32,881 nt of DNA from an uncultured Alphaproteobacteria bacterium (lineage in GTDB: Bacteria; Pseudomonadota; Alphaproteobacteria; UBA7985; CAJQQZ01): NCBI GenBank assembly GCA_905480575.1, contig CAJQQZ010000176.1, forward strand, positions 1 to 32,881, in the 5' to 3' direction. Positions 1,960-32,881 of this stretch are shown one piece after another. Made by a program: the position numbers and the translations under genes. Within the stretch, counting starts at the first letter, position 1; every line of letters begins with the position of its first letter. The notes below the pieces were generated by a model. That model did no database searches. It was not told the DNA's origin and saw only the letters and a program-made list of their open reading frames with translations.

Positions 1960-1988
1960 TTATGTGTAAGAGCGTCATAGGAGCATAT

Positions 1989-2213
1989 TTATTTGTAGCT
2001 TTCACGGCGGTCACCAAAGCTCCTCACTCTTTTTCGCCAAGCCTTATAGCTACCGGTTTTCAAACTGTCTCTCATCAACGTCTTTACTTGCTTTTCGGTA
2101 ATCCCATATTCAGAGTAAATCTGAGCAAAACTTACATGATCGGACAGCGCCATTTCAATGATCGCGCTAATATGTGCTTGTGGTAACTCGTTAGCTTTTT
2201 CCATACCTGACAA
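1989..2213 (-). CDS. DUF2805 / TIGR03643-type small protein
   Basis: A 74-residue protein matching my memory of the DUF2805 (TIGR03643) family. The core VSFAQIYSEYGITEKQVKTL (about 27-46) is followed by a basic KAWRKRV segment. The predicted fold is a helix-turn-helix-like helical bundle with no signal peptide, membrane helix or metal site. It lies 32 bp downstream of the antenna-less photolyase-like gene and 29 bp before the full-length photolyase gene, so it is almost certainly co-transcribed with them. Family members are, as far as I recall, often found beside photolyase genes, but no function is established. A role in DNA binding or in regulating the cluster is inference only. Confidence 0.75.
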   Translation of the reverse strand: MSGMEKANELPQAHISAIIEMALSDHVSFAQIYSEYGITEKQVKTLMRDSLKTGSYKAWRKRVRSFGDRRESYK

Positions 2214-2245
2214 ATAGCGGACATCAATGAGAAGACAAGCCTAAT

Positions 2246-3490
2246 CTACTGCATGACAAAACCTAAATCGGTCAACACGGTTGGGATTTTCTTTTTGAGG
2301 TTAAAGAACCCCTTGGTTGCGTGGGGCCAAACAAGTCCATCATAAGTTCGCTGATGTTGATGTAAGCTGATACCGTGCTCAGCAAGCCTTGCCTTTGCAG
2401 CATCCAAATGGGATGCCACCGGGCCAAGCGTTGCGAGTGAAGTCACAATTTGGGTTGTCCCAGCAAGCCGGGTTGCCTCAACCAGATGTTCAACCCAATT
2501 GTTCGTGGCCGTAGCTGGGGACGTTAGGTGTTCAAATCGTGAAAGTGCATCCGCTACGGCACCTTGCGCAAAAGCTTGAACTTTTTCGCTTTGATGAGAA
2601 TTAGATGCGGGGAGCAAACCCAACACACCAGCTGGCTGGGCTTCAATGAAGGTATTAGGCTGGCAGTCTTCAGGTGTGATCAACAGCAAGAAGTCACCTT
2701 CTGGCATTGGTTGCACTGGCATTAACGGCACCAGTGAGTGATCAACCTCCTCGGTTAAGGGTTCAGCTGTGGTTGATAGTTGCCCTATGGGTTCAAATCG
2801 ACCCTCAGTGAATTTTGCAATATTTGAGGGGCAAGCCAAATAGGTTTTACCTTTGGTATGCAATCCGCCAACCCAGCGCCAGCTCAATGTATTTGCAGCT
2901 GGATCCCCATCAATGAGATGATTAAGAAAAAAGTCAGCCCCTAACTCCCAAGGTAGCCTCAACGTGAATATCCAAATGGAGGCGAACCACATCCGTGCAT
3001 GATTATGCAAATACCCAGTTGATTTAAGCTCGCTACACCAATGGTCAAAGCAGCTAATACCTGTTCGTCCTTTAGTGGCTTCAACATAATCGGCTTTGCG
3101 TGATAGGTCGCGCTCTAAGCCCTCAAACGCCAACTTAAGATTGCTTTTATAATAATGCCAAACACTGGGGCGTTGTTGCATCCACCCCTTAAAATAGCCC
3201 CGCCAGAAAACCTCTTGTACAAACTTCATAGAAGCCGATAGATCGTGCACTGAGAATACCTCAGCCAAAACCTCTTTCTCATCAACCAGCCTATGCTTAA
3301 TCCACGGTGATAGGCCTGAAACCGTACTCCGATTATCGGAACCTAGATCAAAGTTGCGTTGATTGGCATAGTGAGCGCCCGCGCGCGGTTTAAACTGCCC
3401 CAACCGCTGCAGTCCTGCATGTCGGCTTGGCTCAAACGTCACAGCCTCCTGCTTTAGAGAAAAATGAGATAATCGATCTGATGAGCTCAT
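2246..3490 (-). CDS. photolyase-like FAD-binding protein lacking the antenna domain
   Basis: A 414-residue protein that holds only the C-terminal FAD-binding half of the photolyase/cryptochrome family plus a C-terminal extension. FAD-domain marks are FWRGYFKGW (95-103), GYLHNHARMWFASIWIF (159-175) and LIDGDPAANTLSWRW (192-206). The Asn (N200) and proximal Trp (W204) equivalent to those of classical photolyases are kept. The usual N-terminal Rossmann-like domain is absent: the protein opens with about 60 residues leading straight into the helical domain. Residues after about 240 form a separate C-terminal domain I cannot assign. It sits between the DUF2256 gene (5 bp gap) and the DUF2805 gene. 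Whether it repairs DNA, binds an antenna in trans or signals is unknown. Confidence 0.8.
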   Translation of the reverse strand: MSSSDRLSHFSLKQEAVTFEPSRHAGLQRLGQFKPRAGAHYANQRNFDLGSDNRSTVSGLSPWIKHRLVDEKEVLAEVFSVHDLSASMKFVQEVFWRGYFKGWMQQRPSVWHYYKSNLKLAFEGLERDLSRKADYVEATKGRTGISCFDHWCSELKSTGYLHNHARMWFASIWIFTLRLPWELGADFFLNHLIDGDPAANTLSWRWVGGLHTKGKTYLACPSNIAKFTEGRFEPIGQLSTTAEPLTEEVDHSLVPLMPVQPMPEGDFLLLITPEDCQPNTFIEAQPAGVLGLLPASNSHQSEKVQAFAQGAVADALSRFEHLTSPATATNNWVEHLVEATRLAGTTQIVTSLATLGPVASHLDAAKARLAEHGISLHQHQRTYDGLVWPHATKGFFNLKKKIPTVLTDLGFVMQ

Positions 3491-3495
3491 AAGTT

Positions 3496-3657
3496 CTATA
3501 CCTCTTTCTTCTCGTGGGCGGCCTTTGGTCTACGATGCCTTCGGCAACGTTCTGAGCAATAGAGCACTTCATCCCAAACCTTTACCCACTTCTTCCGCCA
3601 CAGGAACGGTCGATCACACGTACGGCACGTTTTGGAAGGCAAGTCAGACTTTTTCAT
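3496..3657 (-). CDS. DUF2256 zinc-knuckle protein
   Basis: A small protein (53 residues from the MKKSDLPSK start) of the DUF2256 family. It carries CRTC near the N-terminus and CSERC near the C-terminus, a four-cysteine zinc-knuckle pattern around the family core RPFLWRKKWVKVWDEV. A longer reading from 3696 adds 13 residues but runs deeper into the upstream photolyase gene; the shorter start overlaps the end of that gene by 14 bp, which fits translational coupling. DUF2256 genes are known neighbours of FeS-type bacterial photolyases. The function is unknown; a nucleic-acid or photolyase partner role is inference. Confidence 0.85.
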   Translation of the reverse strand: MKKSDLPSKTCRTCDRPFLWRKKWVKVWDEVLYCSERCRRHRRPKAAHEKKEV

Positions 3658-5179
3658 CGGCTTCAATCGCCTTGAAAAAACGACGGCTATCATCACGGAT
3701 TGCTTGGCGCTTTTCTTCGCTCATCCGATCCAAACTTTTATACATAAAACCCATACGTTGATTGCCTCGCAACTTGCCTTCATTACGCCCGATAAAATCC
3801 CAATAGAGGTAGTTGAACGGACAAGCAGTGGGTCCGTTTTTGACGCTCACCTTATATTTGCAAGAGCCGCAGTAGTTGGACATTTTATTGATATAAGTAC
3901 CGCTCGCCGCGTATGGCTTTGAGGCCAGCAATCCGCCATCTGCAAATAAGACCATGCCCGAGACATTAGGCAGTTCGACCCATTCATAGGCGTCAGCATA
4001 GACCAACATATACCAGTTATTGACCTCATCTGGATCAAGCCCAGCGATCAAAGCAAAATTCCCTAATACCATCAATCGCTGAATATGGTGGGCATAGGCA
4101 TTTTGTTTTGTTTCAGTAACGCATTGCCTTATGCAGTTCATCTGTGTTTCAGCAGTCCAGTAAAATTCAGGAAGTGGTCGTTTTGCCTCGAGAAAATTTA
4201 CCTGTTTGTAGTCAGGCATTTTCAGCCAATAAATACCCCGCACATATTCGCGCCACCCAAGGATTTGTCGGATGAAGCCTTCAACCGCATTCAGAGGCGC
4301 GATACCTTCATGATATGCCTTCTCCGCTCGCTCAATGCACTCTAACGGAGTGAGCAGCCCACAATTGAGATAGAAGCCGAGATGGCTGTGATGCATCCAC
4401 GGCTCGTTTTGTATCATCGCGTCTTGGTAGTCACCAAATAGGCTTAGTCGTTTTACAATGAATTGATCTAATGCTTCATTTGCTTGGTTCCGCGTGACCG
4501 TAAAATGGAAGGGTAAAAGATCTCCAAAATGATCTGAAAAATGTGTCTCAACAAGAGCTAAAACCTCTTGAGTAATGTCATCTGGCTGAGCACGATAGGT
4601 GTCCGGCACTTCCAAACCTGAGGCAGGCGGTTTGCGATTTTCAGCATCAAAATTCCATTGTCCACCGATAGGCTCACCACAGTTCATCAAAACCGAATAT
4701 TTGCGGCGCATTTCGCGATAGAAGTATTCCATACGCAGTTGTTTTCGCCCCTTTGCCCATGCTGCAAATTCTGTTTGTGAGCATAGAAAACGGCTATCTT
4801 CTTTTATGGTGACAGGCAGATTGAGCGCTGCTGACCAACTGGCCATTTGCTCTTGCAGTCTGTATTCACCGGGTGCCGTAACAACGATTTCTGAAAATGC
4901 TTTTTGAGATGCTAGACGAGTTACTTCACCAGCTAACGATCCAGTATTATTTGGATCGTCATATTTGACATAGTCGATATTGTAACCGTCTTCGGCAAGC
5001 TCTTTTGCAAAATGCCGCATTGCCGAAAAGACGAGCGCTATCTTCTTTTTGTGATGCTTAACGTAGGTCGCCTCATCGCGAACCTCACACATCAAGATAT
5101 GGTCTTGCTGAGGGTCTAGTTCTGCCAAGCTTGAGATAGATCGGCTTAATTGATCGCCAAGTATTAGGCACAGTTTCAT
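3644..5179 (-). CDS. phrB: FeS-type bacterial cryptochrome/(6-4) photolyase, PhrB-like
   Basis: A 511-residue member of the iron-sulfur bacterial cryptochrome/photolyase group, which repairs (6-4) photoproducts with light using FAD, an antenna chromophore and a [4Fe-4S] cluster. Cysteines C349, C437, C440 and C453 sit one position from the four cluster ligands of Agrobacterium PhrB (350, 438, 441, 454). The adjacent histidines in AYAHHIQRL (H364, H365) match the conserved pair of that enzyme, and the FAD site shows DAYEWVELPNVSGM. The start MKLCLILGDQL at 5179 is chosen because family members begin there; an upstream in-frame ATG at 5230 would add 17 unrelated residues. It is the first gene of the minus-strand light cluster and overlaps the DUF2256 gene. 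Confidence 0.92.
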   Translation of the reverse strand: MKLCLILGDQLSRSISSLAELDPQQDHILMCEVRDEATYVKHHKKKIALVFSAMRHFAKELAEDGYNIDYVKYDDPNNTGSLAGEVTRLASQKAFSEIVVTAPGEYRLQEQMASWSAALNLPVTIKEDSRFLCSQTEFAAWAKGRKQLRMEYFYREMRRKYSVLMNCGEPIGGQWNFDAENRKPPASGLEVPDTYRAQPDDITQEVLALVETHFSDHFGDLLPFHFTVTRNQANEALDQFIVKRLSLFGDYQDAMIQNEPWMHHSHLGFYLNCGLLTPLECIERAEKAYHEGIAPLNAVEGFIRQILGWREYVRGIYWLKMPDYKQVNFLEAKRPLPEFYWTAETQMNCIRQCVTETKQNAYAHHIQRLMVLGNFALIAGLDPDEVNNWYMLVYADAYEWVELPNVSGMVLFADGGLLASKPYAASGTYINKMSNYCGSCKYKVSVKNGPTACPFNYLYWDFIGRNEGKLRGNQRMGFMYKSLDRMSEEKRQAIRDDSRRFFKAIEADEKV

Positions 5180-5297
5180 ATGTAGTTCAAATCCATAAAT
5201 TCGAGCTAGAACCTCTATTCTTGCTCTCAATATAACAAACTATGTCATTCCGCCCCTAACTCAATAGTGTCCCGTTAAATAAAGTAAGCGCACGATG

Positions 5298-7016: not shown

Positions 7017-8312
7017 TCACAATCGATACAAGTGCGACAAGTCCAGTCCCTCATACTCAACTCTGGCGACCTTATCGTATAGCTTTGTAATGAGGTGCCC
7101 GCTTCCATAACGGCTATCCATCCTCTTGTAGTCCACCCAACCCAATAACTGTTCCCGATACTCAAGACCCACATCAGCAGCACGTAAGGCATCGTTGAAC
7201 GAATTGCGGAAGCTGTGGAATACTTTCCGTCTTGGAAAAGACAAGCCGGTGGGCTTCATAAAGACACGGAACCGCTTTGAAAACTGATCTGACATCTTGG
7301 ACGCACTTTGAAGCGGCATATCTGGAAAGAGCCATTGCCGATCTGATTGCTCGACATATGACAGGAAGCCGATCTTGATCAATTCCGGGTGGATCGGCAC
7401 CTTACGTAGAGAGTTCTTGGCTTTTAGGCGCTTGATGTATTCTCCTTCGGGAGCATAGTCATTGCCATAAACCTTATCATTGACATCGAAGTAGTAGACG
7501 TCATCTGTTTGCTTGATGTCGTGCTTTTCCAGTTGCAATATCTCCTGCATCCGCAGTCCTGAGAAAGCAGAGATAAGCGGTAACCAGAAGCGGCTACGCC
7601 TTGGCCGATTGGGACCAACCTTATTTATGCCGTGCCTGTCGTCCTGACAGCCTGTATACAAAGGTTGATTGAAAATTACCTTCAGCTCACTTGTCGTGAA
7701 CGGCTCATAGCCTTCCTCTTGCTCAGAATAACTTTTGGGCCTTGCTGGCTTGTTGATCGTAACTAGCCGAGATGGATTGCCAGCTAGAAACTCTTCTTTC
7801 ACCGCCCAATCAAAAATTGCATTGAGTTTGGATAGGTTCTTGCCAGCTTCTTTATGGCGTTGTGCCGGTTCACCATTCTTTTTAGCGTGGGCCTCAGAAG
7901 CCTTTTGCAAGCTCATACGCTTATAGTGACGCTTTGCCCAAGGAGGAATGACAACGAACAAATCAGCGATGGACTGACACTGTGCCCGCGTAATTTCAGA
8001 GAGCGGTATGGACCTGCCTACTTCTTCTTCCAACGCACGTGTGGCTGTCTTCAGTTGATCAAAGCGTGACTTCGTTATGCCCGGTTCTTTGTGCTTGAGA
8101 TACTTATCAACAAGTTCCCCAACTCTTACACTTCGCTGAGGCATAATCTCTACATTCGGTTCAAGCGCTGGTGCAAATAATGGGTTCTGAAGTGTAGGAT
8201 GTCGATTGTCAGAGACGGCTTCCAGGCGCCGTCGAGCTATCTCAGCATTCGCTTCTGCCAGACGATCAGCTAATTGCTGGAACGACGGGCTCGAGCGTAG
8301 ATCAGCTGTCAC
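7017..8312 (-). CDS. tyrosine integrase, catalytic part (gene broken by in-frame stop)
   Basis: A 431-codon frame (GTG as first possible start) carrying a core-binding domain (about 60-180) and the tyrosine recombinase catalytic domain (about 205-425). Catalytic residues visible are Arg254 in SGLRMQEI, His366 and Arg369 in HSFR, Trp392 in LLGW, and probable nucleophile Tyr402 in SRYGSGH. It would cut and join DNA at the attachment site of a genomic island. The frame continues exactly in phase, across one TAA at 8382-8384, from the upstream DUF6538-like segment. The two pieces are therefore one integrase gene of about 629 codons with a nonsense mutation. The GTG at 8312 is not preceded by a clear ribosome binding site, so independent translation is doubtful. 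Confidence 0.85.
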   Translation of the reverse strand: MTADLRSSPSFQQLADRLAEANAEIARRRLEAVSDNRHPTLQNPLFAPALEPNVEIMPQRSVRVGELVDKYLKHKEPGITKSRFDQLKTATRALEEEVGRSIPLSEITRAQCQSIADLFVVIPPWAKRHYKRMSLQKASEAHAKKNGEPAQRHKEAGKNLSKLNAIFDWAVKEEFLAGNPSRLVTINKPARPKSYSEQEEGYEPFTTSELKVIFNQPLYTGCQDDRHGINKVGPNRPRRSRFWLPLISAFSGLRMQEILQLEKHDIKQTDDVYYFDVNDKVYGNDYAPEGEYIKRLKAKNSLRKVPIHPELIKIGFLSYVEQSDRQWLFPDMPLQSASKMSDQFSKRFRVFMKPTGLSFPRRKVFHSFRNSFNDALRAADVGLEYREQLLGWVDYKRMDSRYGSGHLITKLYDKVARVEYEGLDLSHLYRL

Positions 8313-8381
8313 CTTTAACCCTGTATGCTGGCGTAACTTACCTCGCCTTCTTCTCTTATAGGTATGCTGGAAGTCTTTTTG

Positions 8382-8906
8382 TTATAGAAAGTGATACTTG
8401 ATCAACTGCTTCAAGGCGACCAGATGAAACGCTGTCGCGATGTCTTGGTCTGGGTGACGGTACAGCTTTTCCTGATCGGTTGTGGCCAATGCATCAGCTT
8501 CCTCAAAGTCCTCAGCAAGCTCCACCAGAATTTCATGACGATTTTCGTCGGTAACGCCCTTCCTATACCCAGCGCCTTTCTGGATTTGTTGCTCCAGTTC
8601 ATGGAAGTAAGCAATGGCGATCTGGTTTAGCTCGTGATCTGTGAGCCTGAATTTGAACCCGGGTTCATCAGCATTGCTTGCCTTGGCACCTGCGGGTGAA
8701 CTCTTGCGCTGACCTTCCAGCCTTTTGATCTCGGCATCGGTCGTAACGCCAAAGACTTTGGCCTTTTCACATGCGGTCCTGTAATCGACCCCAGAAATGC
8801 GTTCTATCCAGTTCTCTTTGCCAACCAATGTCTGTAGAGCTTTGGGAACACGCCGACGTAGCTTCCAGCCCTTGTTGTCTTTACTCAGATACTGTTGTTT
8901 AGGCAT
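8382..8906 (-). CDS. integrase N-terminal segment (DUF6538-like), ends at premature TAA
   Basis: This is the front part of the split integrase. It starts as MPKQQYLSKDNKGWKLRRR, the DUF6538-type opening of long alphaproteobacterial integrases, and runs to KQLIKYHFL before a TAA. After the stop the same frame stays open (QKDFQHTYK then, 16 codons on, TGLKVTADLR) into the catalytic part. The start at 8906 is favoured by family resemblance; in-frame ATGs at 8915 and 8972 would add 3 or 22 residues. It begins about 100 bp from the 3' end of tRNA-Met and is transcribed in the same direction, the usual position for a tRNA-targeting island integrase. Confidence 0.75.
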   Translation of the reverse strand: MPKQQYLSKDNKGWKLRRRVPKALQTLVGKENWIERISGVDYRTACEKAKVFGVTTDAEIKRLEGQRKSSPAGAKASNADEPGFKFRLTDHELNQIAIAYFHELEQQIQKGAGYRKGVTDENRHEILVELAEDFEEADALATTDQEKLYRHPDQDIATAFHLVALKQLIKYHFL

Positions 8907-9007
8907 GTCGTTCATGCCTAATGTGTACCACCGATGTGTACCACTTTTCAAGAGAGAGCCATTGAAAACCAATGGTTTTCAGAAATATCAATGAGTTATG
9001 AGTGTGT

Positions 9008-9084
9008 TGGTAGCGGGAGAGGGACTTGAACCCCCGACACGCGGATTATGATTCCGCTGCTCTAACCAGCTGAGCTACCCCGCC
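9008..9084 (-). tRNA. tRNA-Met (CAT)
   Basis: The minus strand reads as a complete 77-nt tRNA with encoded CCA. The acceptor stem GGCGGGG pairs with CTCCCGC with one G-T wobble, the D-loop has AGCTGGTTAGA, and the anticodon stem GCGGA/TCCGC encloses loop ATCATAA with anticodon CAT. The T-arm is GGGGG-TTCAAGT-CCCTC. The sequence matches elongator tRNA-Met of alphaproteobacteria; a lysidine-modified tRNA-Ile2 also has CAT but differs elsewhere. The 3' end faces the integrase, so it is the likely attachment site. Confidence 0.95.
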
Positions 9085-21194: not shown

Positions 21195-21225
21195 TTGAGT
21201 TTCCATCAGAGGGAAGGTGTAATTC
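21195..21225 (+). promoter_or_regulatory. CueR-type promoter of copper unit A
   Basis: A -35 box TTGAGT (21195-21200) and a -10 box TAATTC (21220-21225) are separated by 19 bp, the over-long spacer typical of MerR-family activated promoters. The spacer contains ttcca....gggaaggtg, an imperfect dyad of the CueR/HmrR type and similar to the site before cueR in this window. It faces the copper genes starting at 21289. Confidence 0.75.
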
Positions 21226-21262: not shown

Positions 21263-21292
21263 ATGAACACTTTTTTGGGCTTCAGAATTTGA
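21263..21292 (+). CDS. possible 9-codon leader ORF
   Basis: ATG at 21263 opens a nine-codon frame (MNTFLGFRI) whose TGA overlaps the TTG start of the Cys-rich peptide gene (TTGA). The arrangement would couple translation of the TTG-started gene, which has no clear ribosome site of its own. The leader itself also lacks a strong ribosome site, so this is tentative. Confidence 0.25.
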   Translation: MNTFLGFRI

Positions 21293-21693
21293 CTAAGGGC
21301 GGTTTCAAACAATCGATTGTTAAGTCAGCTGTGATACTCGCGATGCTTCTGCACTCGTTGGTGTCAACCGTCCATGCTGCGCCTCAAACTGAGTTGTCAG
21401 ATTTGACAGATTCAAAACATTCTTTGTCGGCGTCTGCACCTCAGGACGCCATTTCCGAAATAGCCGAAAATCCTCATAAAGCACACTTCAGTGACACCGA
21501 ACAAATGTCGTGTTTGACCCATGAAGCTGACAATCAAAGTTCTTGCTGTCAAAACTTTTGCTATTCCGGCTTTTGTCCTTCTTTAGCTTCGGCAACCAGC
21601 TTCTTTGGTGGAAAGGCAAAACATCAATTCGCTGAACAGCAATTGCTCCTGGCTTTCCACCCCAACGCCCTCAATCGTCCACCGCGAATTTAA
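21289..21693 (+). CDS. exported Cys-rich peptide, CutF/CruR-like candidate copper sensor
   Basis: A 134-residue exported protein. The signal peptide is KQSIVKSAVILAMLLHSLVS with cleavage after about HAA (30-31). The mature part has a cysteine cluster CCQNFCYSGFC (86-96) plus Cys75, and it ends in the proline motif NRPPRI. It is the first gene after a CueR-type promoter and is followed by a stem-loop and then the lipoprotein, outer membrane factor and oxidase genes. This matches the layout described for CutF of Rhodobacter capsulatus and the DUF2946 protein CruR of Bordetella, where a nascent exported Cys-rich chain senses copper and controls translation downstream. Homology is inferred from architecture only. 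The start codon TTG is the only suitable one before the signal core. Confidence 0.55.
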   Translation: MTKGGFKQSIVKSAVILAMLLHSLVSTVHAAPQTELSDLTDSKHSLSASAPQDAISEIAENPHKAHFSDTEQMSCLTHEADNQSSCCQNFCYSGFCPSLASATSFFGGKAKHQFAEQQLLLAFHPNALNRPPRI

Positions 21694-21768: not shown

Positions 21769-21999
21769 ATGAAAAAGAAATTATTTGGCGCTGCCCTTTT
21801 GGCAGGTACCTTGGGAGGGTGCATAACGGAGCAACCTCCAGAATTTTTAACCGCAAATTCACCCACAAACGCTGAAGCGGGCATACAAAATGTCCACCAT
21901 CATTCAGGCCTGGGCTCTTGGCAAGATCGTCGACCTGTCGAGCCAAAGTCATGGAAGAAACTTAATGAAGAGCAGTCTCCCAAAAAGGAGGCCCACTGA
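21769..21999 (+). CDS. small predicted lipoprotein of the copper operon
   Basis: A 76-residue predicted outer-membrane or periplasmic lipoprotein. The signal MKKKLFGAALLAGTLGGC gives a lipobox LGGC with Cys18. The mature part is hydrophilic, with an NVHHHSGLGSW segment whose three histidines could bind copper. The TGA stop overlaps the ATG of the TolC-like gene, so the two proteins are translationally coupled and perhaps form a complex. I do not recognise a family. Confidence 0.75.
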   Translation: MKKKLFGAALLAGTLGGCITEQPPEFLTANSPTNAEAGIQNVHHHSGLGSWQDRRPVEPKSWKKLNEEQSPKKEAH

Positions 22000-23480
22000 T
22001 GACCTACTCCAAAATTCTAAAAAGAAGTTTCGCTGTTGGTCTAACAATTTCTCCTCTTGTTCTGGGCGGCTGTGGACTTGTCAAACAAATGGAGGCTCAC
22101 TCTACTTCTGACCGAGGGCTCAACGAGGTCTCCTCACAGACGGCGGCCATTACAGGTCAGCAGCCCGTCTGGGTTCGTAACAAAGAAGACGCGGAGTTTC
22201 TTCAGGCCAAGGTTAGTTCGCTTGTCAAAGGCAGAACTATTTCCGCTGATGCCGCCGTTCAGGTCGCCTTACTGAATAACAAGCGTGTGCAAGTCGCTTT
22301 TGCCGATGTTGGGCTGTCCGCCGCAGATGCCTGGCAGCAGACCATGCTGGAAAACCCTAAAGTCTCTATTGGCCTGTTGGGCATCGCTCATCCTGAGATT
22401 GGAGCGATAAGGGCCATTGAAGGAATGATAGCTGCAAACATTCTGGCGATCGCCACAAGAAATTCGAGAATGGAACTGGCTGATAACCGCTTTCGGCAAG
22501 CCAAACTAAGGGCTGTTGAGGAAACTTTGAGCGTGGCAGCTGAGGCAAGGACAGCCTGGATCAACGCTGTGGCTGCTTTCGAGACAGTTCATTTTCTCAA
22601 CAAGGCGCAAATCTCTGCAGATGCTTCCTCAGAACTTGCACTGAAGCTTGGTGAGACAGGTGCCATTCCAAAGGGGGCTCAGGCGCGAGAGCACGTCTTT
22701 TTTGCAGAACTCAGTGGACAGAGGGCTCAAGCGAGACTTGCTGCCCGACTGGCTAAAGAAGAACTGACACGTGTGATGGGGCTCTGGGGTTCTGACCTGA
22801 ATTACTTTGTCCCTGACTTTCTTCCTTCTTTACCGAATTATGTTCGACAGAAGCCCAGCATAGAAGCTGAAGCATTGAGAAACAGGGTCGACTTGAAGGC
22901 TGCAAAGTTGGAGCTGGATGCAATGGCAAAATCTTACGGCCTTACTCATGCAACGCGCTACGTAACCGATCTGGAAATCATCTCTGGTTTCGAGGCAGAA
23001 CGTGAATTGGAAGATGGTGAGAAAAAGTGGACAACCACGCCCCAGGTTGAACTGGAATTTGTCATTCCGATCTTTGACTCGGGGCAAGCAAGGCTTCGCA
23101 AAGCGGAATTGGCTTACAAGAAGGCCGCTCTCGTTTTGGCGGAAAAGGCGATCAATATTCGCTCAGAAGCCAGGTCGGCTCAAACGGCCTATCTTGCAAC
23201 TTATGAAATTGCACGCCACTACCGTGACGCCGTCGTTCCACTTCGCATCCAGATCGAAGAAGAGGCATTGCTCACTTACAATGGCATGATCTCCAGCACT
23301 TTTGAGCTGTTGGCTGACAATCGTGCCAAGACCAACGCAATACTTCAAGCCGCAAATTCAAAGCGAGACTTCTGGTTGGCTAACGCCAGCCTCTCTGGTG
23401 CCATCTTTGGCGGTGGCGCTGGTGGTGCCGCAATGAGCGGCGGAACTGAAATGGTTGCTGGCGGCGGTGCCGAGCATTGA
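21999..23480 (+). CDS. TolC-like outer membrane factor
   Basis: A 493-residue outer membrane efflux protein of the TolC/CusC family. It has a lipoprotein-type signal ending LVLGGC (Cys25), and two long alpha-helical repeats. The first helix region includes AAVQVALLNNKRVQVAFADV (85-104) and the second includes AALRN-type RVDLKAAKLELDAM, with VIPIFDSGQARL the conserved Pro-Ile-Phe turn of the family. A Gly/Ala/Met-rich tail closes the protein. No inner-membrane pump or membrane-fusion protein is encoded next to it, which is unusual for an efflux channel. It may serve a pump elsewhere or have a copper role with the oxidase. The stop overlaps the region before the oxidase, with a strong ggagga site at 23481. 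Confidence 0.88.
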   Translation: MTYSKILKRSFAVGLTISPLVLGGCGLVKQMEAHSTSDRGLNEVSSQTAAITGQQPVWVRNKEDAEFLQAKVSSLVKGRTISADAAVQVALLNNKRVQVAFADVGLSAADAWQQTMLENPKVSIGLLGIAHPEIGAIRAIEGMIAANILAIATRNSRMELADNRFRQAKLRAVEETLSVAAEARTAWINAVAAFETVHFLNKAQISADASSELALKLGETGAIPKGAQAREHVFFAELSGQRAQARLAARLAKEELTRVMGLWGSDLNYFVPDFLPSLPNYVRQKPSIEAEALRNRVDLKAAKLELDAMAKSYGLTHATRYVTDLEIISGFEAERELEDGEKKWTTTPQVELEFVIPIFDSGQARLRKAELAYKKAALVLAEKAINIRSEARSAQTAYLATYEIARHYRDAVVPLRIQIEEEALLTYNGMISSTFELLADNRAKTNAILQAANSKRDFWLANASLSGAIFGGGAGGAAMSGGTEMVAGGGAEH

Positions 23481-23494
23481 GGAGGAAAGAGACT

Positions 23495-24853
23495 ATGATG
23501 AATAGAAGACAGCTTTTGGGTGCTGGGGCTGGTGTAGGTGCCGCAATGGTATCCGCCAACGCCTGGACGAAAACAACCAATATGGGTCTGCCAGAAGCCC
23601 CTCTTATGGACTCAGCGGCGACGCAGGACCCAGTTTATCCAACGTCAGGGCCAGACTATCAGCCTGTTGTAACGGTTAACGGCTGGTCGCTGCCACATCG
23701 GATGAATAACGGCGTGAAGGAGTTCCACCTGATCGCCGAGCCGGTTGAACGTGAGATGTCCGAGGATATGACTGGTTACCTCTGGGGTTACAATGGGCAA
23801 TCACCAGGGCCAACTCTGGAGGCGGTTGAAGGCGACCGCGTCCGAATTTTCGTGACCAACAAATTGCCAGAGCACACCTCAATTCATTGGCACGGATTTA
23901 TCCTGCCGTCGGGAATGGACGGTGTTGGTGGGCTTAGTCATCCGGGCATTCCGCCGGGCAAAACTTTTGTCTATGAATTCGATATGACCAAAAGTGGTAC
24001 CTTCATGTACCATCCTCATGCCGATGAAATGGTTCAAATGGCGATGGGAATGATGGGCATGTTCATTGTCCATCCCAAAGATCCTGAATTCATGCGCGTG
24101 GACCGGGATTTTGTCTTCATGTTGAACGCCTATGATATCGATCCCGGCTCCTATGTTCCGAAGATCATGACAATGACTGACTTTAATCTATGGTGCTGGA
24201 ACTCCCGTTTGTTCCCGGACATCGACCCTATTGTCATTTCAAAGAACGATCACGCCCGGATAAGAGTCGGTAACCTGACCATGACCAATCACCCTATCCA
24301 TATGCACGGTTATGACTTTGAAGTCAGCTGCACGGACGGTGGTTGGGTCAGACCTGAAGCGCGTTGGCCGGAAGTGACGATTGACATCCCCGTCGGTGGT
24401 ATGAGGGCCTTTGACTTCCATGCCATTCATGAAGGGGATTGGGCTATACACTGCCACAAATCCCACCATACGATGAATGCTATGGGCCATGATGTTCCGA
24501 CATTCATTGGTGTAGACAAGTCCGGCATAACCCGTAAAATTCGCAAACTTCAGCCGGAATACATGCCAATGGGTACCGCTGGAATGGCAGACATGGGTGA
24601 AATGCAGATGGAGCTGCCAGACAACACTGTTCCGATGATGGCAGGTTGGGGCCCTCATGGGCCACTGGAAATGGGCGGTATGTTCTCTGTGGTTAAGGTG
24701 CGTGAAGGTCTGGATTCAGACGACTATTCGGACCCTGGTTGGTACGAAAATCCACCAGGAACAGAGGCGTACGAATGGACAGGCGAGTTGCCTGATTTTA
24801 CCAGATCCTCAAACGCAAAAACCCAAATCACGAAGAAGCAGAAGTCTTCCTAG
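23495..24853 (+). CDS. multicopper oxidase, Met-rich, Tat-exported
   Basis: A 452-residue periplasmic multicopper oxidase, probably oxidising Cu(I) to less toxic Cu(II). A Tat signal NRRQLLGAGAGVGAAMVSAN leads the protein. All four copper motifs are present: HWHG (131-134), HPH (173-175), HPIHMH (266-271) and HCHKSHHTMNAM (319-330), giving type 1 ligands His266, Cys320, His325 and axial Met330. Only about 70 residues separate the first pair of motifs from the third, so it looks like a two-domain oxidase with a C-terminal extension. Met-rich segments lie at 183-189 and 357-382. The start at 23495 follows ggaggaaag; an ATG at 23477 lies inside the TolC-like gene. Confidence 0.92.
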   Translation: MMNRRQLLGAGAGVGAAMVSANAWTKTTNMGLPEAPLMDSAATQDPVYPTSGPDYQPVVTVNGWSLPHRMNNGVKEFHLIAEPVEREMSEDMTGYLWGYNGQSPGPTLEAVEGDRVRIFVTNKLPEHTSIHWHGFILPSGMDGVGGLSHPGIPPGKTFVYEFDMTKSGTFMYHPHADEMVQMAMGMMGMFIVHPKDPEFMRVDRDFVFMLNAYDIDPGSYVPKIMTMTDFNLWCWNSRLFPDIDPIVISKNDHARIRVGNLTMTNHPIHMHGYDFEVSCTDGGWVRPEARWPEVTIDIPVGGMRAFDFHAIHEGDWAIHCHKSHHTMNAMGHDVPTFIGVDKSGITRKIRKLQPEYMPMGTAGMADMGEMQMELPDNTVPMMAGWGPHGPLEMGGMFSVVKVREGLDSDDYSDPGWYENPPGTEAYEWTGELPDFTRSSNAKTQITKKQKSS

Positions 24854-24943
24854 TCACTGAAATTTTCCGGATCTATCTGGAGACCACTAGACGGGGTTTT
24901 TTGGGTGGATCACTTTTTAACTCATTCCTACAGGAGAAATTGG

Positions 24944-25231
24944 ATGAGATTGTTGAGAATTGTACTTGTCTGTTTGGCAGCGAGCTTTGTAACTGTTCCC
25001 GCTTTTGCGGACACATTTACGAAAGGCGTAATCAAGAAAGTTGATGCCAAGAAAAAGAAAGTCACCATCATTCATGAGGAGTTGGTGGAATTGGATATGC
25101 CAGCCATGACCATGGTTTTTAAGGTGGCAGATGAAGCCATGCTGGAAGGCCTTGAGAAGGGTGATGAAGTTGAGTTCATCGCTGAGCGTGAGAATGGCAA
25201 ATTAATGGTCAAAGAATTCAAACAGGACTAA
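24944..25231 (+). CDS. CusF-like periplasmic copper-binding protein
   Basis: A 95-residue periplasmic metallochaperone of the CusF family. A signal peptide ends at VPAFA (about 22). The OB-fold metal site shows His44 and the motif MPAMTM (52-57), equivalent to E. coli CusF His36, Met47 and Met49, with Met52 where CusF has the cation-pi Trp44. The start at 24944 follows aggagaa; an upstream in-frame ATG at 24905 lacks this. It follows the oxidase after 90 bp and is closed by a terminator. It likely carries Cu(I) to the oxidase or an efflux pump. Confidence 0.9.
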   Translation: MRLLRIVLVCLAASFVTVPAFADTFTKGVIKKVDAKKKKVTIIHEELVELDMPAMTMVFKVADEAMLEGLEKGDEVEFIAERENGKLMVKEFKQD

Positions 25232-25365: not shown

Positions 25366-25396
25366 TTGACCCTCCAGTCAGTGGAAGGTCTAGATT
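25366..25396 (+). promoter_or_regulatory. CueR-type promoter of cueR-copA
   Basis: -35 TTGACC (25366-25371) and -10 TAGATT (25391-25396) are separated by exactly 19 bp. The spacer ctccagtcagtggaaggtc forms the dyad ACCcTCCAg....tGGAAGGT with flanking bases, a textbook CueR/HmrR operator. The transcript would start about 40 bp before cueR, so the regulator controls itself and copA. Confidence 0.88.
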
Positions 25397-25437
25397 GCCA
25401 CTTCAAGCGCAAATTCGCGAAGAGTCAGAGTGCCATG

Positions 25438-25833
25438 ATGAACATAAGTGAAGCTTCTAAACGGTCTCACCTACCGGTGAAAACCATACGCTATTACGAA
25501 GACATTGATCTGATTAAGCCTGCTCGCAACGGAAGTGGTTATCGAAGCTATAACGAGAGCGACGTTCATCGATTGCGCTTTCTACAACGCTCCCGCAGCC
25601 TGGGTTTCACCATTGAAGAATGCCGCTTGCTGTTGTCGCTTTATGACGATGACAATCGCGCCAGCTCAGATGTGAAGTCCGTAGCTGAAGCCAAAATCAA
25701 GGAAATCGATTTGAAGATCAAAGAGCTGGGGACACTCAAGGTAACGCTTTCTGCGTTGGCTCAAAATTGCCACGGGGATGACAAACCCGATTGCCCGATT
25801 ATCGACGATTTGGCCGGAAGACGAGATCATTAG
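25438..25833 (+). CDS. cueR: CueR/HmrR copper-responsive MerR regulator
   Basis: A 131-residue cytoplasmic MerR-family activator that senses Cu(I) and turns on efflux genes by remodelling promoters with long spacers. The winged helix-turn-helix shows [20 protein letters not shown] (2-21) and [13 protein letters not shown]. The metal loop has Cys111 and Cys119 in CHGDDKPDC, matching Cys112 and Cys120 of E. coli CueR. A start 3 bp earlier at 25435 is equally possible. The longer frame from 25366 begins inside the promoter and is discarded. copA starts 5 bp after the stop. Confidence 0.93.
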
Positions 25834-25838
25834 AAGCG

Positions 25839-28271
<2,433 letters not shown>

Positions 28272-28308: not shown

Positions 28309-28650
28309 ATGAGCATGATTGTCAGGTTTCTAATTCAGCTGGTTATTGTGTTGGCTCTCGTTTCGGGCCCAGCACAAGCCTTGCCTATGGAAAGTCAAGA
28401 AGACAATCACCATCACTCTCAGGCTGTAAGCGACCATGATCACGGTCAGGTGTCATCAGATGAATCATCTTGCTGCCACCCAGTAGAAGTGGCGCATAGC
28501 TGCTTGCATCAGGTATCTGGCGTTCTGGTTTCAGAACCTTTAGCTAAGTTACCTTTAAAATCGGTCATAGGCCCTTTGCCAGAACGTCGGGGAACCATCT
28601 CTTCAAGACCTTGTTCTCCACCTCATCGACCGCCAATTCACTTTTCGTAG
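28309..28650 (+). CDS. exported His/Cys-rich peptide, second CutF/CruR-like candidate
   Basis: A 113-residue exported protein with signal peptide MIVRFLIQLVIVLALVSGPAQA. The mature part has a histidine cluster NHHHSQAVSDHDHG (33-46), a CC pair at 55-56, Cys65, and a proline-rich end SRPCSPPHRPPI (99-110). It sits 37 bp after copA and before a stem-loop and the cytochrome/oxidase genes. The architecture (exported chain, Cys/His metal site, terminal Pro motif, hairpin before an oxidase unit) again matches the described CutF/CruR type of copper-sensing nascent chain. There is no obvious sequence identity with the first candidate beyond CC and RPP-type endings. The function is inferred. Confidence 0.55.
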   Translation: MSMIVRFLIQLVIVLALVSGPAQALPMESQEDNHHHSQAVSDHDHGQVSSDESSCCHPVEVAHSCLHQVSGVLVSEPLAKLPLKSVIGPLPERRGTISSRPCSPPHRPPIHFS

Positions 28651-28651: not shown

Positions 28652-28697
28652 CCTTTTTTAGGGGGAACAATTTCCCCTTTTACTACTCTACTAAAGG
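28652..28697 (+). promoter_or_regulatory. stem-loop that may mask the ribosome site of the cytochrome c' gene
   Basis: Hairpin agggggaa / ttcccctt (28660-28667 with 28672-28679, loop caat). An outer pairing of ccttt (28652-28656) with aaagg (28693-28697), the ribosome site of the gene at 28707, is possible. It starts 2 bp after the stop of the peptide gene, so a ribosome stalled near the Pro-rich end would disturb it. It could alternatively be a weak terminator. Confidence 0.5.
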
Positions 28698-28706: not shown

Positions 28707-29282
28707 ATGAAGAAGAAACTCCTGGTCGCTTCGGCGGCTACTCTGTCAATTGGTTTGGCACTTGGTGCTTTCGCTCACTCAGGTGCCATGGGTATCGTTA
28801 AAGAACGCATGGACGGCATGATGGTTATGGGTAAATCCATGAAGTCCATTGCCATGATGGTGAAGGGCGTCAAAGACTATGACGCTGACACCATAAAAGC
28901 CGCAGCGGCTGCCATCGAAAAGCATTCCGGTGAAAACATGACAAAGCTGTTTCCCAAGGGCGAGAAAAAGCAAAAAGTCTCCGTAGCCAAAGACGAAATC
29001 TGGACCAATTGGGAAGAGTTTGAGGCTCTTTCCATGAGGCTTCAAATACTGTCACAAGGTTTGGCTGCTTCAGCTGACAAAGGCTTGAGTGGTGCCTCTG
29101 ATTCTATGATGGGAAATAGCTCTATGATGGGTAGCGGCTCTATGATGGGCAGCGGCTCAATGATGTCCGATAGTAACATGCCGACAATGGAAATGATGGC
29201 GGGAATGTCACCTAACATGATCTTTCCGATGATTGCTGGAACCTGTTCCTCTTGTCACACGAAGTTTCGCACTGAGAAATGA
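28707..29282 (+). CDS. Met-rich cytochrome c' / c556-type protein
   Basis: A 191-residue periplasmic cytochrome of the class II (c'/c556) four-helix type. A signal peptide ends at FAHS (about 24). Helix A has VKERMDGMMVMGKSMKSIA and the haem site CSSCH is near the C-terminus (180-184), as in this class. Between the third and fourth helices sits an unusual Met-rich insert (133-168) made of SMMGxx units, encoded by 18-bp tandem repeats, probably a copper-binding element. The start has aaagga 8 bp upstream. The stop overlaps the ATG of the di-heme cytochrome gene (ATGA). Confidence 0.88.
   Translation: MKKKLLVASAATLSIGLALGAFAHSGAMGIVKERMDGMMVMGKSMKSIAMMVKGVKDYDADTIKAAAAAIEKHSGENMTKLFPKGEKKQKVSVAKDEIWTNWEEFEALSMRLQILSQGLAASADKGLSGASDSMMGNSSMMGSGSMMGSGSMMSDSNMPTMEMMAGMSPNMIFPMIAGTCSSCHTKFRTEK
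29103..29174 (+). repeat. four 18-bp tandem repeats coding a Met-rich segment
   Basis: Units start at 29103, 29121, 29139 and 29157. The first three begin tctatgatggg; the last is diverged (tcaatgatgtcc). They encode repeats of Ser-Met-Met-Gly within the cytochrome c' gene. The second and third units differ by a single base. Confidence 0.85.
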
Positions 29283-30169
29283 GGAGATTAGCACAGCTAG
29301 CTACTGTCGCGGCATTTGCCGGGGCAGTAGTCTTGGCGGCGGTTCACTTTTGGCCCATTGGTCAGCCGGTCAAGACAATCGCCCTTGAAGGGGATGCTGG
29401 TCGAGGAGCCTATCTCGCCCGAATATCTGGTTGCATCGGCTGTCATACCAACAGCAAAGAAGGCGGCAAGCCTTTGGCTGGTGGTGTCGCTTTTCTCACG
29501 GAGTTTGGTACTTTCTATTCGCCCAATCTAACAATGGACAAAGCTGAAGGCATGGGAAACTGGAGCATCGAGGATTTTGATAAAGCGGTCCGCCAGGGCG
29601 TGTCGCCTGAAGGGCAGCCATACTATCCGGCTTTCCCATACGCCTTCTATGCCAATTTTACCGACCAGGATATTGCTGATCTTTGGGCTGCCTTTAAAAC
29701 TGTACCTGCTGTTGCACAGCCTTCGAAGGAAAACGACCTCTCATTGCCGTTCAGCTATCGCCCGGGCCTGAAGGTCTGGCGCGCTGCGTTCGGCAGTGAG
29801 CCTGAAGCCAGAGATCCTGTAGCGGGGAAATCAGACGCCTGGAACCGAGGCCGTTATCTGGTTGAAGGAGCCACCCATTGTGGGGCTTGTCATACGCCCA
29901 GGAACTTTGCTGGTGCTCGCATTCTGGCCCGCAAGTTTGAAGGCGCAACAGGACTGCCTGAAGGTGGAAAATCACCGGCGATCACGGCAGAGGCTCTCAA
30001 AGCGGAAGGCTGGACCAAGGATGACCTCGCCTTCGCACTGAAGCTTGGTATGCTGCCAAGCGGAGACGTATTCGGCAGCCTAATGGGTGAATTTGTTACT
30101 GAAGCGACGCAGCACATGACCGATGAGGACTTGGCCGCCGTCGCAACCTATCTGATGAAAGAGGAATAG
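29279..30169 (+). CDS. di-heme cytochrome c
   Basis: A 296-residue periplasmic c-type cytochrome with an N-terminal hydrophobic segment (RRLAQLATVAAFAGAVVLAA) that is either a signal or an anchor. Two haem sites are present: CIGCH (52-56) and CGACH (201-205), each heading a class I domain. The pattern GGVAFLTEFGTFYSPNLT after the first site is shared with cytochrome subunits of alcohol and aldehyde dehydrogenases. No dehydrogenase is encoded here, so it more likely carries electrons to or from the adjacent oxidase. Its start overlaps the previous stop by 4 bp and the second oxidase follows 3 bp later. Confidence 0.9.
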   Translation: MRRLAQLATVAAFAGAVVLAAVHFWPIGQPVKTIALEGDAGRGAYLARISGCIGCHTNSKEGGKPLAGGVAFLTEFGTFYSPNLTMDKAEGMGNWSIEDFDKAVRQGVSPEGQPYYPAFPYAFYANFTDQDIADLWAAFKTVPAVAQPSKENDLSLPFSYRPGLKVWRAAFGSEPEARDPVAGKSDAWNRGRYLVEGATHCGACHTPRNFAGARILARKFEGATGLPEGGKSPAITAEALKAEGWTKDDLAFALKLGMLPSGDVFGSLMGEFVTEATQHMTDEDLAAVATYLMKEE

Positions 30170-30172
30170 AGT

Positions 30173-31546
30173 ATGGTCTTCTCTCGCAGATCTTTTATGG
30201 CTGGAGCGACGGCTCTTGGCCTGGCCCCAAAACTGGCTTTTGCCAATGCGGCTGAGCAACTGATTGCCAGCGAATCCAGTCATCAGATAGCGCCTGAGGC
30301 TTATCCCGCCACCTCTGTCTGGTGCTTCAATGACTCTATTCCCGGTTCCCTCATCAAAGTGAAGCAAGGGCAGAAGATTGAACGTGAGTTCGTCAATCGA
30401 TTGCCTCAGGATTCTTCAGTACATTGGCACGGCATTCGCCTCAATAATGCCATGGACGGGGTTCCAGGAGTAACACAGGATGTCGTCAAGCCAGGAGGCA
30501 GCTTTGATTATCACTTCACCGCGCCGGATGCTGGCACTTATTGGTATCACTCTCACAACCGTTCGCTAGAGCAGGTTGAGCGAGGTCTCTATGGACCTAT
30601 CATTGTTGAAGAGCATGAATTGCCAGATGTGGACAGGGACGAGGTCATCGTTCTTGATGATTGGTTATTTACCGAACAAGCGCAAATCCACGGCGATTTT
30701 AATGCCATGCATTCTCTGTCTCATGGTGGGCGGCTGGGGAACTATCTAACCGCGATGACCCTGGCGCGCGAACCTTTGACTGTCAAACAAAACGAGAGGA
30801 TCAGATTGCGGTTTATCAATGTCGCAACGGACAAAATTTTTAGTATTGGCCTTCATGGCTTTGAAGGCAAAGTGGTTGCTCTGGATGGCATGCCACTGGT
30901 CGAGCCAATACCACTTGATCACCTGGTTCTTGGCCCTGCCCAAAGGGCTGATGTCATCGCTGACGTCACAACAGAAGACGGTGGTCTTGCCACTATTGTT
31001 TCCCATGAAAGAAGCTCTGCTATTGTTCTGGCGGAAGTCACTGTGAGTGGAAAAGCCAGTCGAGCAAAGCGCGATGAAATGAAGGCTCTACCTCTCAATC
31101 ACGTGGAAAGCCCCGGAGACTTGATGAAGGCAAAGAGAGCGCCTTTGTTGATGGAGGGCGGTGCCATGGGACGCTTGCGCGCTGGAATCTACAAGGGCGA
31201 GGAACTCTCAATACGGGATCTTGTTCGAAACGGGCAGGTATGGACCTTCAATGGGGTCGCTAATATCACGGATGAACCCCTGGCTGAATTGAACCTTGGG
31301 GAGGACCTCGTCATTCCCATTACCAACCAAACCGCTTTTCCCCATGCAATGCATCTGCACGGTCATCACTTTCAGGAAGTTTTGGCGGATGGTTCCCTGG
31401 GACCATTCAGAGACACCCTTTTGGTCAATCGCAACGAGACTAGAGAGATCGCCTTTAAAGCCACCAACCCTGGCAGCTGGCTCTTCCACTGCCATATGCT
31501 TTCTCATCAAAAGGCAGGCATGAAAACCTTCGTGAGGGTTTCGTGA
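30173..31546 (+). CDS. three-domain multicopper oxidase, Tat-exported
   Basis: A 457-residue periplasmic multicopper oxidase of the CueO/CutO/PcoA superfamily, probably a Cu(I) oxidase. A Tat signal with SRRSFMAGA leads it. Copper motifs are HWHG (84-87), HSH (126-128), HAMHLHGHH (391-399) and HCHMLSHQKAGM (439-450), giving type 1 ligands His391, Cys440, His445 and Met450. The spacing between motifs 2 and 3 is long enough for a full middle domain, unlike the first oxidase in this island. It lacks the long Met-rich insert of CueO. The stop overlaps the GTG of the next cytochrome gene. Confidence 0.92.
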   Translation: MVFSRRSFMAGATALGLAPKLAFANAAEQLIASESSHQIAPEAYPATSVWCFNDSIPGSLIKVKQGQKIEREFVNRLPQDSSVHWHGIRLNNAMDGVPGVTQDVVKPGGSFDYHFTAPDAGTYWYHSHNRSLEQVERGLYGPIIVEEHELPDVDRDEVIVLDDWLFTEQAQIHGDFNAMHSLSHGGRLGNYLTAMTLAREPLTVKQNERIRLRFINVATDKIFSIGLHGFEGKVVALDGMPLVEPIPLDHLVLGPAQRADVIADVTTEDGGLATIVSHERSSAIVLAEVTVSGKASRAKRDEMKALPLNHVESPGDLMKAKRAPLLMEGGAMGRLRAGIYKGEELSIRDLVRNGQVWTFNGVANITDEPLAELNLGEDLVIPITNQTAFPHAMHLHGHHFQEVLADGSLGPFRDTLLVNRNETREIAFKATNPGSWLFHCHMLSHQKAGMKTFVRVS

Positions 31547-32061
31547 AGACTAGCCTGATAGCCTTGGTAATTGCCGCTATCCTAATAGCAGCCGGTGCTG
31601 GTTACATGCTTTGGCCGCAAGAGCCAGTGGAGCTGAAGGAATCAAAGACTGAGGCAGGGGTCACACCGGGGATCGAACAGGCGAACTTGGCCAGAATTGA
31701 AGTTGGGAAAGAACTCTATGCCGAAAACTGCGCGTCCTGTCATGGCGCTAACCTGGAAGGCAAAACGTCAGAGTGGCGAAGGCCAGGCGCAGATGGTGTT
31801 TTTCCAGCCCCGCCACATGATGAGACAGGCCACACCTGGCATCACGATGACCAGTTGCTCTTCAACTACACGAAACTGGGTGGTGTCGGACTGATGGCAC
31901 TCAACGGCATTGAGGATTTCAATTCTGGTATGCCGGCCTTTGAGGAAACGCTCAGCGATGATGAGATTTGGGCAGTCCTTGGTTTCATAAAGTCAACTTG
32001 GCCCGCACATATTCAGGACCAGCAACGACAACGAACTGAAGCATCAAAGCAGGGAGGATAA
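31543..32061 (+). CDS. membrane-anchored mono-heme cytochrome c
   Basis: A 172-residue class I cytochrome c with an N-terminal hydrophobic anchor or uncleaved signal (MKTSLIALVIAAILIAAGAG). The haem site is CASCH (63-67) and Met130 in SGMPAF is the probable second axial ligand. A His-rich stretch HTWHHDD (97-103) lies between them. It starts at GTG inside the stop of the oxidase gene (GTGA), so production is coupled. It is a plausible direct electron partner of the oxidase or the other two cytochromes. Confidence 0.88.
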   Translation: MKTSLIALVIAAILIAAGAGYMLWPQEPVELKESKTEAGVTPGIEQANLARIEVGKELYAENCASCHGANLEGKTSEWRRPGADGVFPAPPHDETGHTWHHDDQLLFNYTKLGGVGLMALNGIEDFNSGMPAFEETLSDDEIWAVLGFIKSTWPAHIQDQQRQRTEASKQGG

Positions 32062-32062: not shown

Positions 32063-32696
32063 ATGCGTGTTCTATTGTTAATTTCATCTTTTATCACGCT
32101 TGTCCTGGCTTCTTCGGTTAACGCACAAACGATTACTGCCACACAAGGCAATGACGGTGACACCATCGTGTTTTCGGCTTCTGAAGCTAAAGGACCAGAT
32201 GCCGCCAAGTCAGCGCTCGGCGGGTTGCGGGATGAACTGGAAAATGACCCCAATGCGCCTGTGTTTGGTAACCCTGATGGTGATATTACGGTTGTGGAGT
32301 TCTTTGATTACAACTCTGGCAACTGTAAACGTCCGTCTTGTTTATCGCGAGTGGCCAATCCTGGGCGAGGGTTCAACCTTTGCCGCCCGCGCCGCCGTGG
32401 CTAGCAGAAAACAGGGACGATACGAGGAAGTTCACATCGCGCTCATGAAGCTTGGCCGCTCTACCGAAGCAACTGTTACAGCCGCGCGTACAAATCTCGG
32501 CCTCGACATGGACCGTTTGCGTATAGACATGAAGTCTTCCGAGATTGATCGACACATAGCCCTGTCCATGAAGCTCACCCAAAACCTGGGCTTTAGAGGC
32601 ACGCCATCTTTCGTGATCGGCGACGAACTGATCCCAGGCATGGTACCGCTCGCGCGATTGAAAGAGATCGTTAACGAACAACGCAGTAATATTTAA
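32063..32696 (+). pseudogene. DsbA-like thiol-disulfide oxidoreductase, frameshifted
   Basis: This was a periplasmic thioredoxin-fold DsbA-like protein. The front part (signal peptide ending VNAQ, then GNPDGDITVVEFFDYNSGNCKR) reads in one frame to about 32335. The rest (VRLVYREWPILGEG to TPSFVIGDELIPG and the end) reads in another frame. Compared with the family, about 15-20 residues just after the active site are missing, so a deletion caused the frameshift. The first active-site Cys is Ser (SGNC for CGYC). It starts right after an ggagg site and 1 bp after the cytochrome gene. Confidence 0.85.
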
Positions 32697-32707: not shown

Positions 32708-32758
32708 GTGAAATTGAAAGCTGGCAAATTGGCTTTGGCCATGACCTGCGCCCCGTAA
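32708..32758 (+). pseudogene. start of an exported-protein gene cut by an IS
   Basis: A GTG preceded by aaaggagac opens a frame MKLKAGKLALAMT, typical of a signal-peptide start. From 32742 the sequence is an IS3-type end, and the frame stops at 32756-32758 inside it. The rest of the gene would lie beyond the element, outside the window. Confidence 0.65.
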
Positions 32759-32881
32759 ACTCCTCCGTTTTCTGGTAGAATTCGTCTAACAGATTCAGGA
32801 GACGAATATGAAGCGATCACGTTTCACAGAAGAACAGATCATTGGGATGATCAAGGAACAGGAATCAGGCGTTTCGACAGC
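32742..32881 (+). mobile_element. IS3-family element, left end (runs off the window)
   Basis: The sequence starts TGACCTGCGCCCCGTAAAC, a typical terminal inverted repeat of the IS3 family, followed after 66 bp by the start of orfA. Only the left end is visible, so length, right repeat and target duplication cannot be checked. Confidence 0.8.
32808..32881 (+). CDS. IS3-family transposase orfA (partial)
   Basis: ATG with aggaga just upstream opens MKRSRFTEEQIIGMIKEQE, the helix-turn-helix start of IS3-family OrfA proteins. It runs off the window after 24 codons. OrfB with the DDE domain is expected outside. Confidence 0.88.
   Translation, partial: MKRSRFTEEQIIGMIKEQESGVST

Follow-up and report, generated by a model that had tools for sequence, protein, structure and literature searches.

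A stretch of DNA of 32,881 nucleotides from an uncultured alphaproteobacterium (GenBank assembly GCA_905480575.1, contig CAJQQZ010000176.1; hereafter the window) contains a plus-strand run of four genes at 28707-32061. These encode a class II cytochrome c (cytochrome c'), a di-haem cytochrome c, a multicopper oxidase and a mono-haem cytochrome c. The same run was found at many other loci of marine bacteria, mostly on Rhodobacterales plasmids and islands, and both its conservation and a role in copper handling are well supported. It was best read as a mobile module in which a haem relay takes part in Cu(I) oxidation, a reading in which we place about even confidence. A first-pass annotation of the window had suggested a periplasmic chain carrying electrons from Cu(I) oxidation to, or from, the respiratory chain. 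The analysis below supports this in part, namely as regards the conserved gene unit and its copper setting; electron transfer is a proposal.

Gene content and conservation of the four-gene run

The genes were assigned as follows.
28707-29282, plus strand: class II cytochrome c (cytochrome c' fold) with signal peptide and one haem (PF01322)
29279-30169, plus strand: di-haem cytochrome c with N-terminal membrane anchor (family profile match)
30173-31546, plus strand: multicopper oxidase with a signal RRSFM resembling those of twin-arginine translocation (Tat) (PF07732/PF00394/PF07731)
31543-32061, plus strand: mono-haem cytochrome c with N-terminal anchor (PF00034)

Coordinates and Pfam families agreed with the order and positions given by the first-pass annotation, and the CxxCH motifs (1 + 2 + 1) accounted for the four haem sites it had counted. 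It had also described the genes as overlapping start to stop. This was correct for two of the three junctions, namely cytochrome c' to di-haem gene (4-bp overlap, ATGA, 29279-29282) and oxidase to mono-haem gene (4-bp overlap, GTGA, 31543-31546), but not for di-haem gene to oxidase, which are separated by a 3-base gap (30170-30172). The N-terminal hydrophobic stretches of both anchored cytochromes looked uncleaved when read from the sequence.

Neighbourhoods were compared at 88 loci, obtained from an oxidase scan of GTDB genomes plus seven plasmid loci. The four genes were present in the same order on one strand within 5.5 kb at 41 of the 88 oxidase loci, representing 36 distinct oxidase sequences. 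A chance neighbourhood was ruled out by this recurrence. The first-pass annotation had proposed looking for the gene order elsewhere, and its occurrence at 41 loci excludes a run found only here; cytochromes private to the source genome were likewise rejected. In the window cueR-copA lies 5' of the four genes, whereas in the usual cassette it lies 3'.

Oxidase homologues were found in 220 plasmid records, of which 117 were typed as conjugative, and relatives of the Met-rich cytochrome c' in 86 plasmid records (41 conjugative). A di-haem gene of cassette grade was found in 3 of 398 genomes of a phylum-wide sample besides the source genome. One of the three lies outside the class, and in it a Met-rich cytochrome c' adjoins the di-haem gene. 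No published description of the cassette was found in the open-licence literature, and an earlier report may exist.

Genes accompanying the 41 cassettes were DsbA (41), L,D-transpeptidase (38), a further cytochrome c (38), CopA (37), CueR (36), DsbD (28), a CopZ-like protein (18), CcmI (17), CcmH (12) and CcmF (9); these counts are lower bounds owing to contig ends, and the plasmid and genome sets share strains. Such company is the basis of the main alternative, which we regard as possible but doubtful. The island would be a kit of spare or copper-proof envelope enzymes (L,D-transpeptidase, DsbA, DsbD, Ccm proteins and c-type cytochromes), in which the oxidase detoxifies Cu(I) alone and the cytochromes sustain respiration, exchanging no electrons with the oxidase. 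Beyond the counts above, it draws real support from the inhibition of L,D-transpeptidases of several species by copper (PMC11390936) and from cytochrome c maturation, which is among the chief targets of copper in the periplasm (PMC8456105). Against it, the Met-loop cytochrome of class II duplicates no known housekeeping electron carrier. The four genes are moreover intact in the window despite a broken dsbA, with no L,D-transpeptidase in the window (ten YkuD proteins of the source genome all lie elsewhere), no Ccm gene on its contig and no match to the extra cassette cytochrome c in the source genome. A relay through the four genes and a replacement role for the flanking genes can be compatible. 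Plasmid islands with replacements for copper-poisoned envelope enzymes would in themselves be an unexplored theme.

The class II cytochrome c and its Met-rich insert

The cytochrome c' of the window was assigned to class II from a PF01322 match over the cut-off (E 3e-23, 83 bits vs 26.5), a C-terminal CxxCH (CSSCH, 29244-29258) and a four-helix bundle in the AlphaFold2 model, which had a mean predicted local distance difference test score (pLDDT) of 81. Every top match in a Foldseek search with this model was a cytochrome c'. The protein is distinguished by one feature.
29082-29186, plus strand: Met-rich insert DSMMGNSSMMGSGSMMGSGSMM, residues 126-160, between helix C and haem helix D

The insert comprises ~35 residues of the type SMMGSGSMMGSGSMM with SMMG repeats and was predicted by AlphaFold2 to be disordered (pLDDT ~50). 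The 75 residues preceding the haem contain 16 Met. Nearly all cassette cytochromes c' have a Met-rich insert, in which the MM pairs are variously spaced. All 50 of the 50 cytochrome c' copies keep the haem site unchanged, and likewise Met35 and Met38 of helix A. The Met-rich loop looks suited to Cu(I) binding, and electron transport may in this way be tied to copper defence.

The same loop could instead serve to store or chaperone Cu(I), as do CusF or Met-rich periplasmic copper proteins, the haem being an inherited bystander and the operon simply co-regulated. Predicted disorder and SMMG repeats would suit such a sponge, and related pairs lacking the insert mark the loop as an add-on. A sponge would need neither an invariant haem site nor a di-haem partner, and the latter is likewise kept almost everywhere; storage is considered unlikely.

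The multicopper oxidase

Three Cu-oxidase Pfam domains were identified in the window oxidase (best E 3e-48). Its T1, T2 and T3 copper ligand motifs are complete (HWHG, HSH, HxxHxH and HCHxxxHxxxxM) and invariant in 7 relatives. Membership of the CueO family (PRK10965, 108 bits vs a cut-off of 525) and of the PcoA/CopA family (TIGR01480, 216 bits vs 479) was rejected.

The closest solved structure was that of laccase 4f7k, which we take to be the bacterial laccase Lac15, matched over the full length (E 4e-132). Lac15 has been studied as a dye enzyme (PMC4103834). On this likeness the oxidase might be a phenol laccase, in an operon with cytochromes that has nothing to do with copper ions as substrate. 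Dye-laccase activity is nevertheless common among cuprous oxidases, and copA, cueR and copper-binding genes are constantly nearby, which makes a phenol laccase very unlikely.

No Met-rich segment was present in the window oxidase, where no stretch of 40 residues holds more than 4 Met; 78 of 96 members of the oxidase family have at most 5 Met per 40 residues. CutO of Rhodobacter capsulatus has a Met-rich segment of 41 residues, and CueO binds extra Cu(I) in its own (PMC8456105). The Cu(I)-binding segment may thus have been shifted from the oxidase to the cytochrome, as judged from the distribution of Met in the two proteins.

The two anchored cytochromes

The di-haem cytochrome matched PF00034 (E 7e-11) and has two CxxCH motifs, at 29432-29446 and 29879-29893. 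Its model contains a helix at residues 2-24. Both haem domains fit the family profile, which also matches haem domains 1 and 2 in the cytochrome subunits of glucose, alcohol and fructose dehydrogenases (E down to 4e-64). It differs from these subunits in that the third haem domain is missing, no dehydrogenase is encoded here and Phe replaces the Met of haem 1. The haem 1 ligand of the dehydrogenase subunits is presumably the Met of their YPAMPY motif, and Phe119 (29633-29635) occupies the expected position in the window protein. Phe was found there in 49 of 51 cassette copies (the other two had gaps) and in 17 of 17 other relatives. The expected ligand of haem 2, Met269 (30083-30085), is retained in all di-haem relatives compared. 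Five-coordination of haem 1 is therefore possible.

The mono-haem cytochrome matched PF00034 (E 5e-12) with a single CxxCH at 31729-31743. A His loop, PPHDxxGHTWHH (PPHDxxGHTWHHxD), at 31810-31845 is near-invariant in 66 homologues. Across 385 Alphaproteobacteria the family was present in 33 of 48 genomes with the oxidase family vs 43 of 337 others (odds ratio 15), and it lay <3 kb from the oxidase family at 20 places in 19 genomes. Away from the oxidase, copA or cueR was within ~9 kb of the mono-haem gene at 12 of 20 sampled loci, compared with a roughly estimated chance expectation of 1-3%. The mono-haem family has a link to copper of its own, and this copper-regulon habit, together with the Met-rich insert, fits a Cu(I)-handling role better than the first-pass annotation could tell. 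At four loci of other Alphaproteobacteria (L194, L191, L202 and L204) the mono-haem gene was seen between or beside cueR and copA, with no oxidase of this family near.

Copper surroundings and regulation

The copper setting of the run was confirmed by a CueR-type operator, cueR, copA, CusF and a second multicopper oxidase upstream. Of these neighbours cueR-copA, along with a small His/Cys-rich frame and a dsbA remnant, belongs with the four genes but was not part of the first-pass finding.
21195-21222, plus strand: putative second CueR-type site, 5' of the upstream copper operon (two mismatches)
21999-23480, plus strand: outer-membrane efflux protein, upstream copper operon (PF02321)
23477-24853, plus strand: second multicopper oxidase, upstream copper operon (PF07732/PF07731)
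24905-25231, plus strand: CusF, upstream copper operon (PF11604)
25366-25395, plus strand: predicted CueR-type promoter/operator TTGACC-CTCCAGTCAGTGGAAGGT-CTAGAT, dyad within the spacer
25435-25833, plus strand: cueR-like MerR regulator (PF13411, PF09278)
25839-28271, plus strand: copA-like Cu(I) P1B-type ATPase with YHS and HMBD metal-binding domains (TIGR01511 above cut-off, Pfam)
28309-28650, plus strand: small secreted-looking His/Cys-rich open reading frame (ORF), positional counterpart HP5
28661-28676, plus strand: hairpin followed by a T-run, possible attenuator or terminator (consensus scan alone)

In a scan of the window, 25369-25389 had one mismatch to ACCTTCCN7GGAAGGT; 1.26 sites with ≤3 mismatches are expected in the window. 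The flanking promoter hexamers were read from the sequence. The CueR-type dyad falls inside a long promoter spacer directly 5' of cueR-copA, an arrangement that suggests control by CueR. The cueR ORF opens at 25366, with a likely start at 25435 or 25438, and the copA ORF opens at 25791. Joint transcription of the four genes with cueR-copA is likely, the hairpin at 28661-28676 standing between them.

A Pfam search with the small ORF at 28309-28650 gave no match. Small His-rich ORFs are similarly placed before cytochrome c' in 18 of the 41 cassettes. The window has two small ORFs of apparently secreted proteins that contain His and paired Cys (21289-21693 and 28309-28650). Neither matched Pfam, and each lies just 3' of, or inside, a putative CueR-controlled unit.

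Downstream of the run two features were identified.
32063-32696, plus strand: dsbA remnant (tblastn in two frames)
32742-32881, plus strand: end of an insertion sequence, terminating the contig (genome copies)

A working dsbA in the window was rejected on sequence, as the active-site Cys is gone (SGNC replaces CPYC) and a deletion or frameshift lies near 32335; part of this may be sequencing error. CPYC is found in nearly all other DsbA copies of the loci with a readable motif, and an intact dsbA relative is present in the source genome (G000:C153). Four other copies of the insertion sequence were found in the genome (93-100% identity), two of them at contig ends. Since the contig ends in this element, the far side of the island lies outside view.

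Proposed mechanism

Periplasmic Cu(I) oxidation is usually credited to one oxidase and O2. For the present module we infer Cu(I) binding, each electron-transfer step and its direction as follows. CopA would move Cu(I) from the cytoplasm to the periplasm, where it would be bound by the flexible Met-rich loop of cytochrome c', the counterpart in trans of the Met segment that CueO and CutO carry in cis. The electron of Cu(I) would pass to the haem and on to the anchored di-haem and mono-haem cytochromes. The chain could end at the multicopper oxidase, with reduction of O2 to water, or at a respiratory terminal oxidase; the direct partner of the multicopper oxidase would most likely be the mono-haem cytochrome. 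Cu(II) would be left over for CusF and the efflux proteins. If correct, the four proteins together would turn copper detoxification into a redox chain.

Several observations weigh against a haem relay. The haem of cytochromes c' is usually five-coordinate, which is atypical of pure electron wires, and that of the present protein may be so too; Met35 and Met38 are invariant, and a c556-like Met ligation is therefore possible. Haem 1 of the di-haem protein, which lacks the usual Met ligand, is equally atypical for a pure wire. Many oxidase homologues have none of these cytochromes nearby, which shows that the family can do without them. The hairpin at 28661-28676, positioned between the small ORF and cytochrome c', may split the cytochrome genes from cueR-copA.

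The association of the Met-rich loop with copper genes is also less firm than it first appears. Among distinct copies, 39 of 43 Met-rich and 7 of 34 plain cytochromes c' were near copA, cueR or the oxidase family, a difference inflated by the finding of most loci through the oxidase. The class-wide sample alone gave copper neighbours for 2 of 6 Met-rich vs 3 of 30 plain copies (p 0.19). No copper gene lay within range of three Met-rich copies (L139, L149 and L150); two of these are on contigs that are short or cut. A further Met-rich copy, L174, was scored as non-copper, yet adjoins a second oxidase-like ORF. A strict rule linking Met loop and copper was weakened by the non-significant class-wide sample and by L139, L149 and L150.

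Origin of the cytochromes

Relatives of cytochrome c' turned up in profile searches of the 385 Alphaproteobacteria; often they adjoin a gene of the same di-haem family and lack both the Met insert and copper neighbours. The source genome itself has such a set (G000:C126:21659-23552, L129), three consecutive genes for a mono-haem cytochrome, a cytochrome c' and a di-haem cytochrome, and neither a Met insert nor an oxidase or copper gene goes with it. A tree of 59 di-haem proteins placed the cassette copies in one group with four Met-rich copies that lie at other loci (support 99/95). This Met-insert group was nested among plain copies, with the chromosomal copy of the source genome outside. One of its members, L106, from a metagenome-assembled genome, has lost its Met residues or never had them. 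The tree, whose long branches limit the detail, would fit a single origin of the Met loop inside an older family of cytochrome c'/di-haem pairs.

A more specific version of the Cu(I)-oxidation reading is put forward tentatively, as a possibility rather than an expectation. A Cu(I)-binding loop would have been acquired by a chromosomal cytochrome c'/di-haem pair, making it a cuprous:cytochrome c oxidoreductase. This pair would have been combined with a multicopper oxidase and a cytochrome of the copper regulon and disseminated by plasmids, and toxic Cu(I) would be oxidised by way of haems that are linked to respiration. If so, a concrete function would be suggested for the cytochrome c'/di-haem pair that is found without copper genes in many Alphaproteobacteria.

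Relation to known systems

The module resembles CueR-CopA-CueO of E. coli, and the corresponding CutO of Rhodobacter capsulatus, in its CueR-type operator, Cu(I) ATPase and Tat-exported periplasmic oxidase. CueO and CutO have their Met-rich segment within the oxidase and are not encoded with cytochromes, whereas here the Met stretch is in a co-encoded cytochrome c'. With the Pco/Cop systems (PcoA/CopA with PcoB, C and D) it shares plasmid-borne copper resistance built around a multicopper oxidase, and some cassette plasmids also have a copper-resistance oxidase and CopB nearby; CopB, C and D stand there in place of the cytochromes found here. Fold, helix order and C-terminal CxxCH are those of cytochromes c' and c556, from which the present protein differs in the insert between helices C and D and in its di-haem genetic partner.

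Copper loci had been described in the first-pass annotation as usually pairing an oxidase with copper carriers. This description has to be qualified: many relatives of the window oxidase stand without any of these cytochromes, and CueR-regulated cytochrome c genes were predicted in Vibrio in 2006 and thought to aid copper resistance (PMC1526738). The Vibrio genes are single c553/c554-type genes, with no oxidase operon, Met-rich cytochrome c' or di-haem protein. A copper-regulon cytochrome is therefore not a new idea, and it is the present operon that is new.

Other features of the window

A phage-type integrase (7017-8312), an ORF with DUF6538 (8382-8972) and tRNA-Met (9008-9084) are adjacent, and 7017-9084 is the end of a tRNA-integrated element. 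Close to the integrase and tRNA-Met, three genes of the photolyase/cryptochrome family lie in a row on the minus strand at 397-5230 (FAD_binding_7 with DNA_photolyase; FAD_binding_7 only; DPRP).

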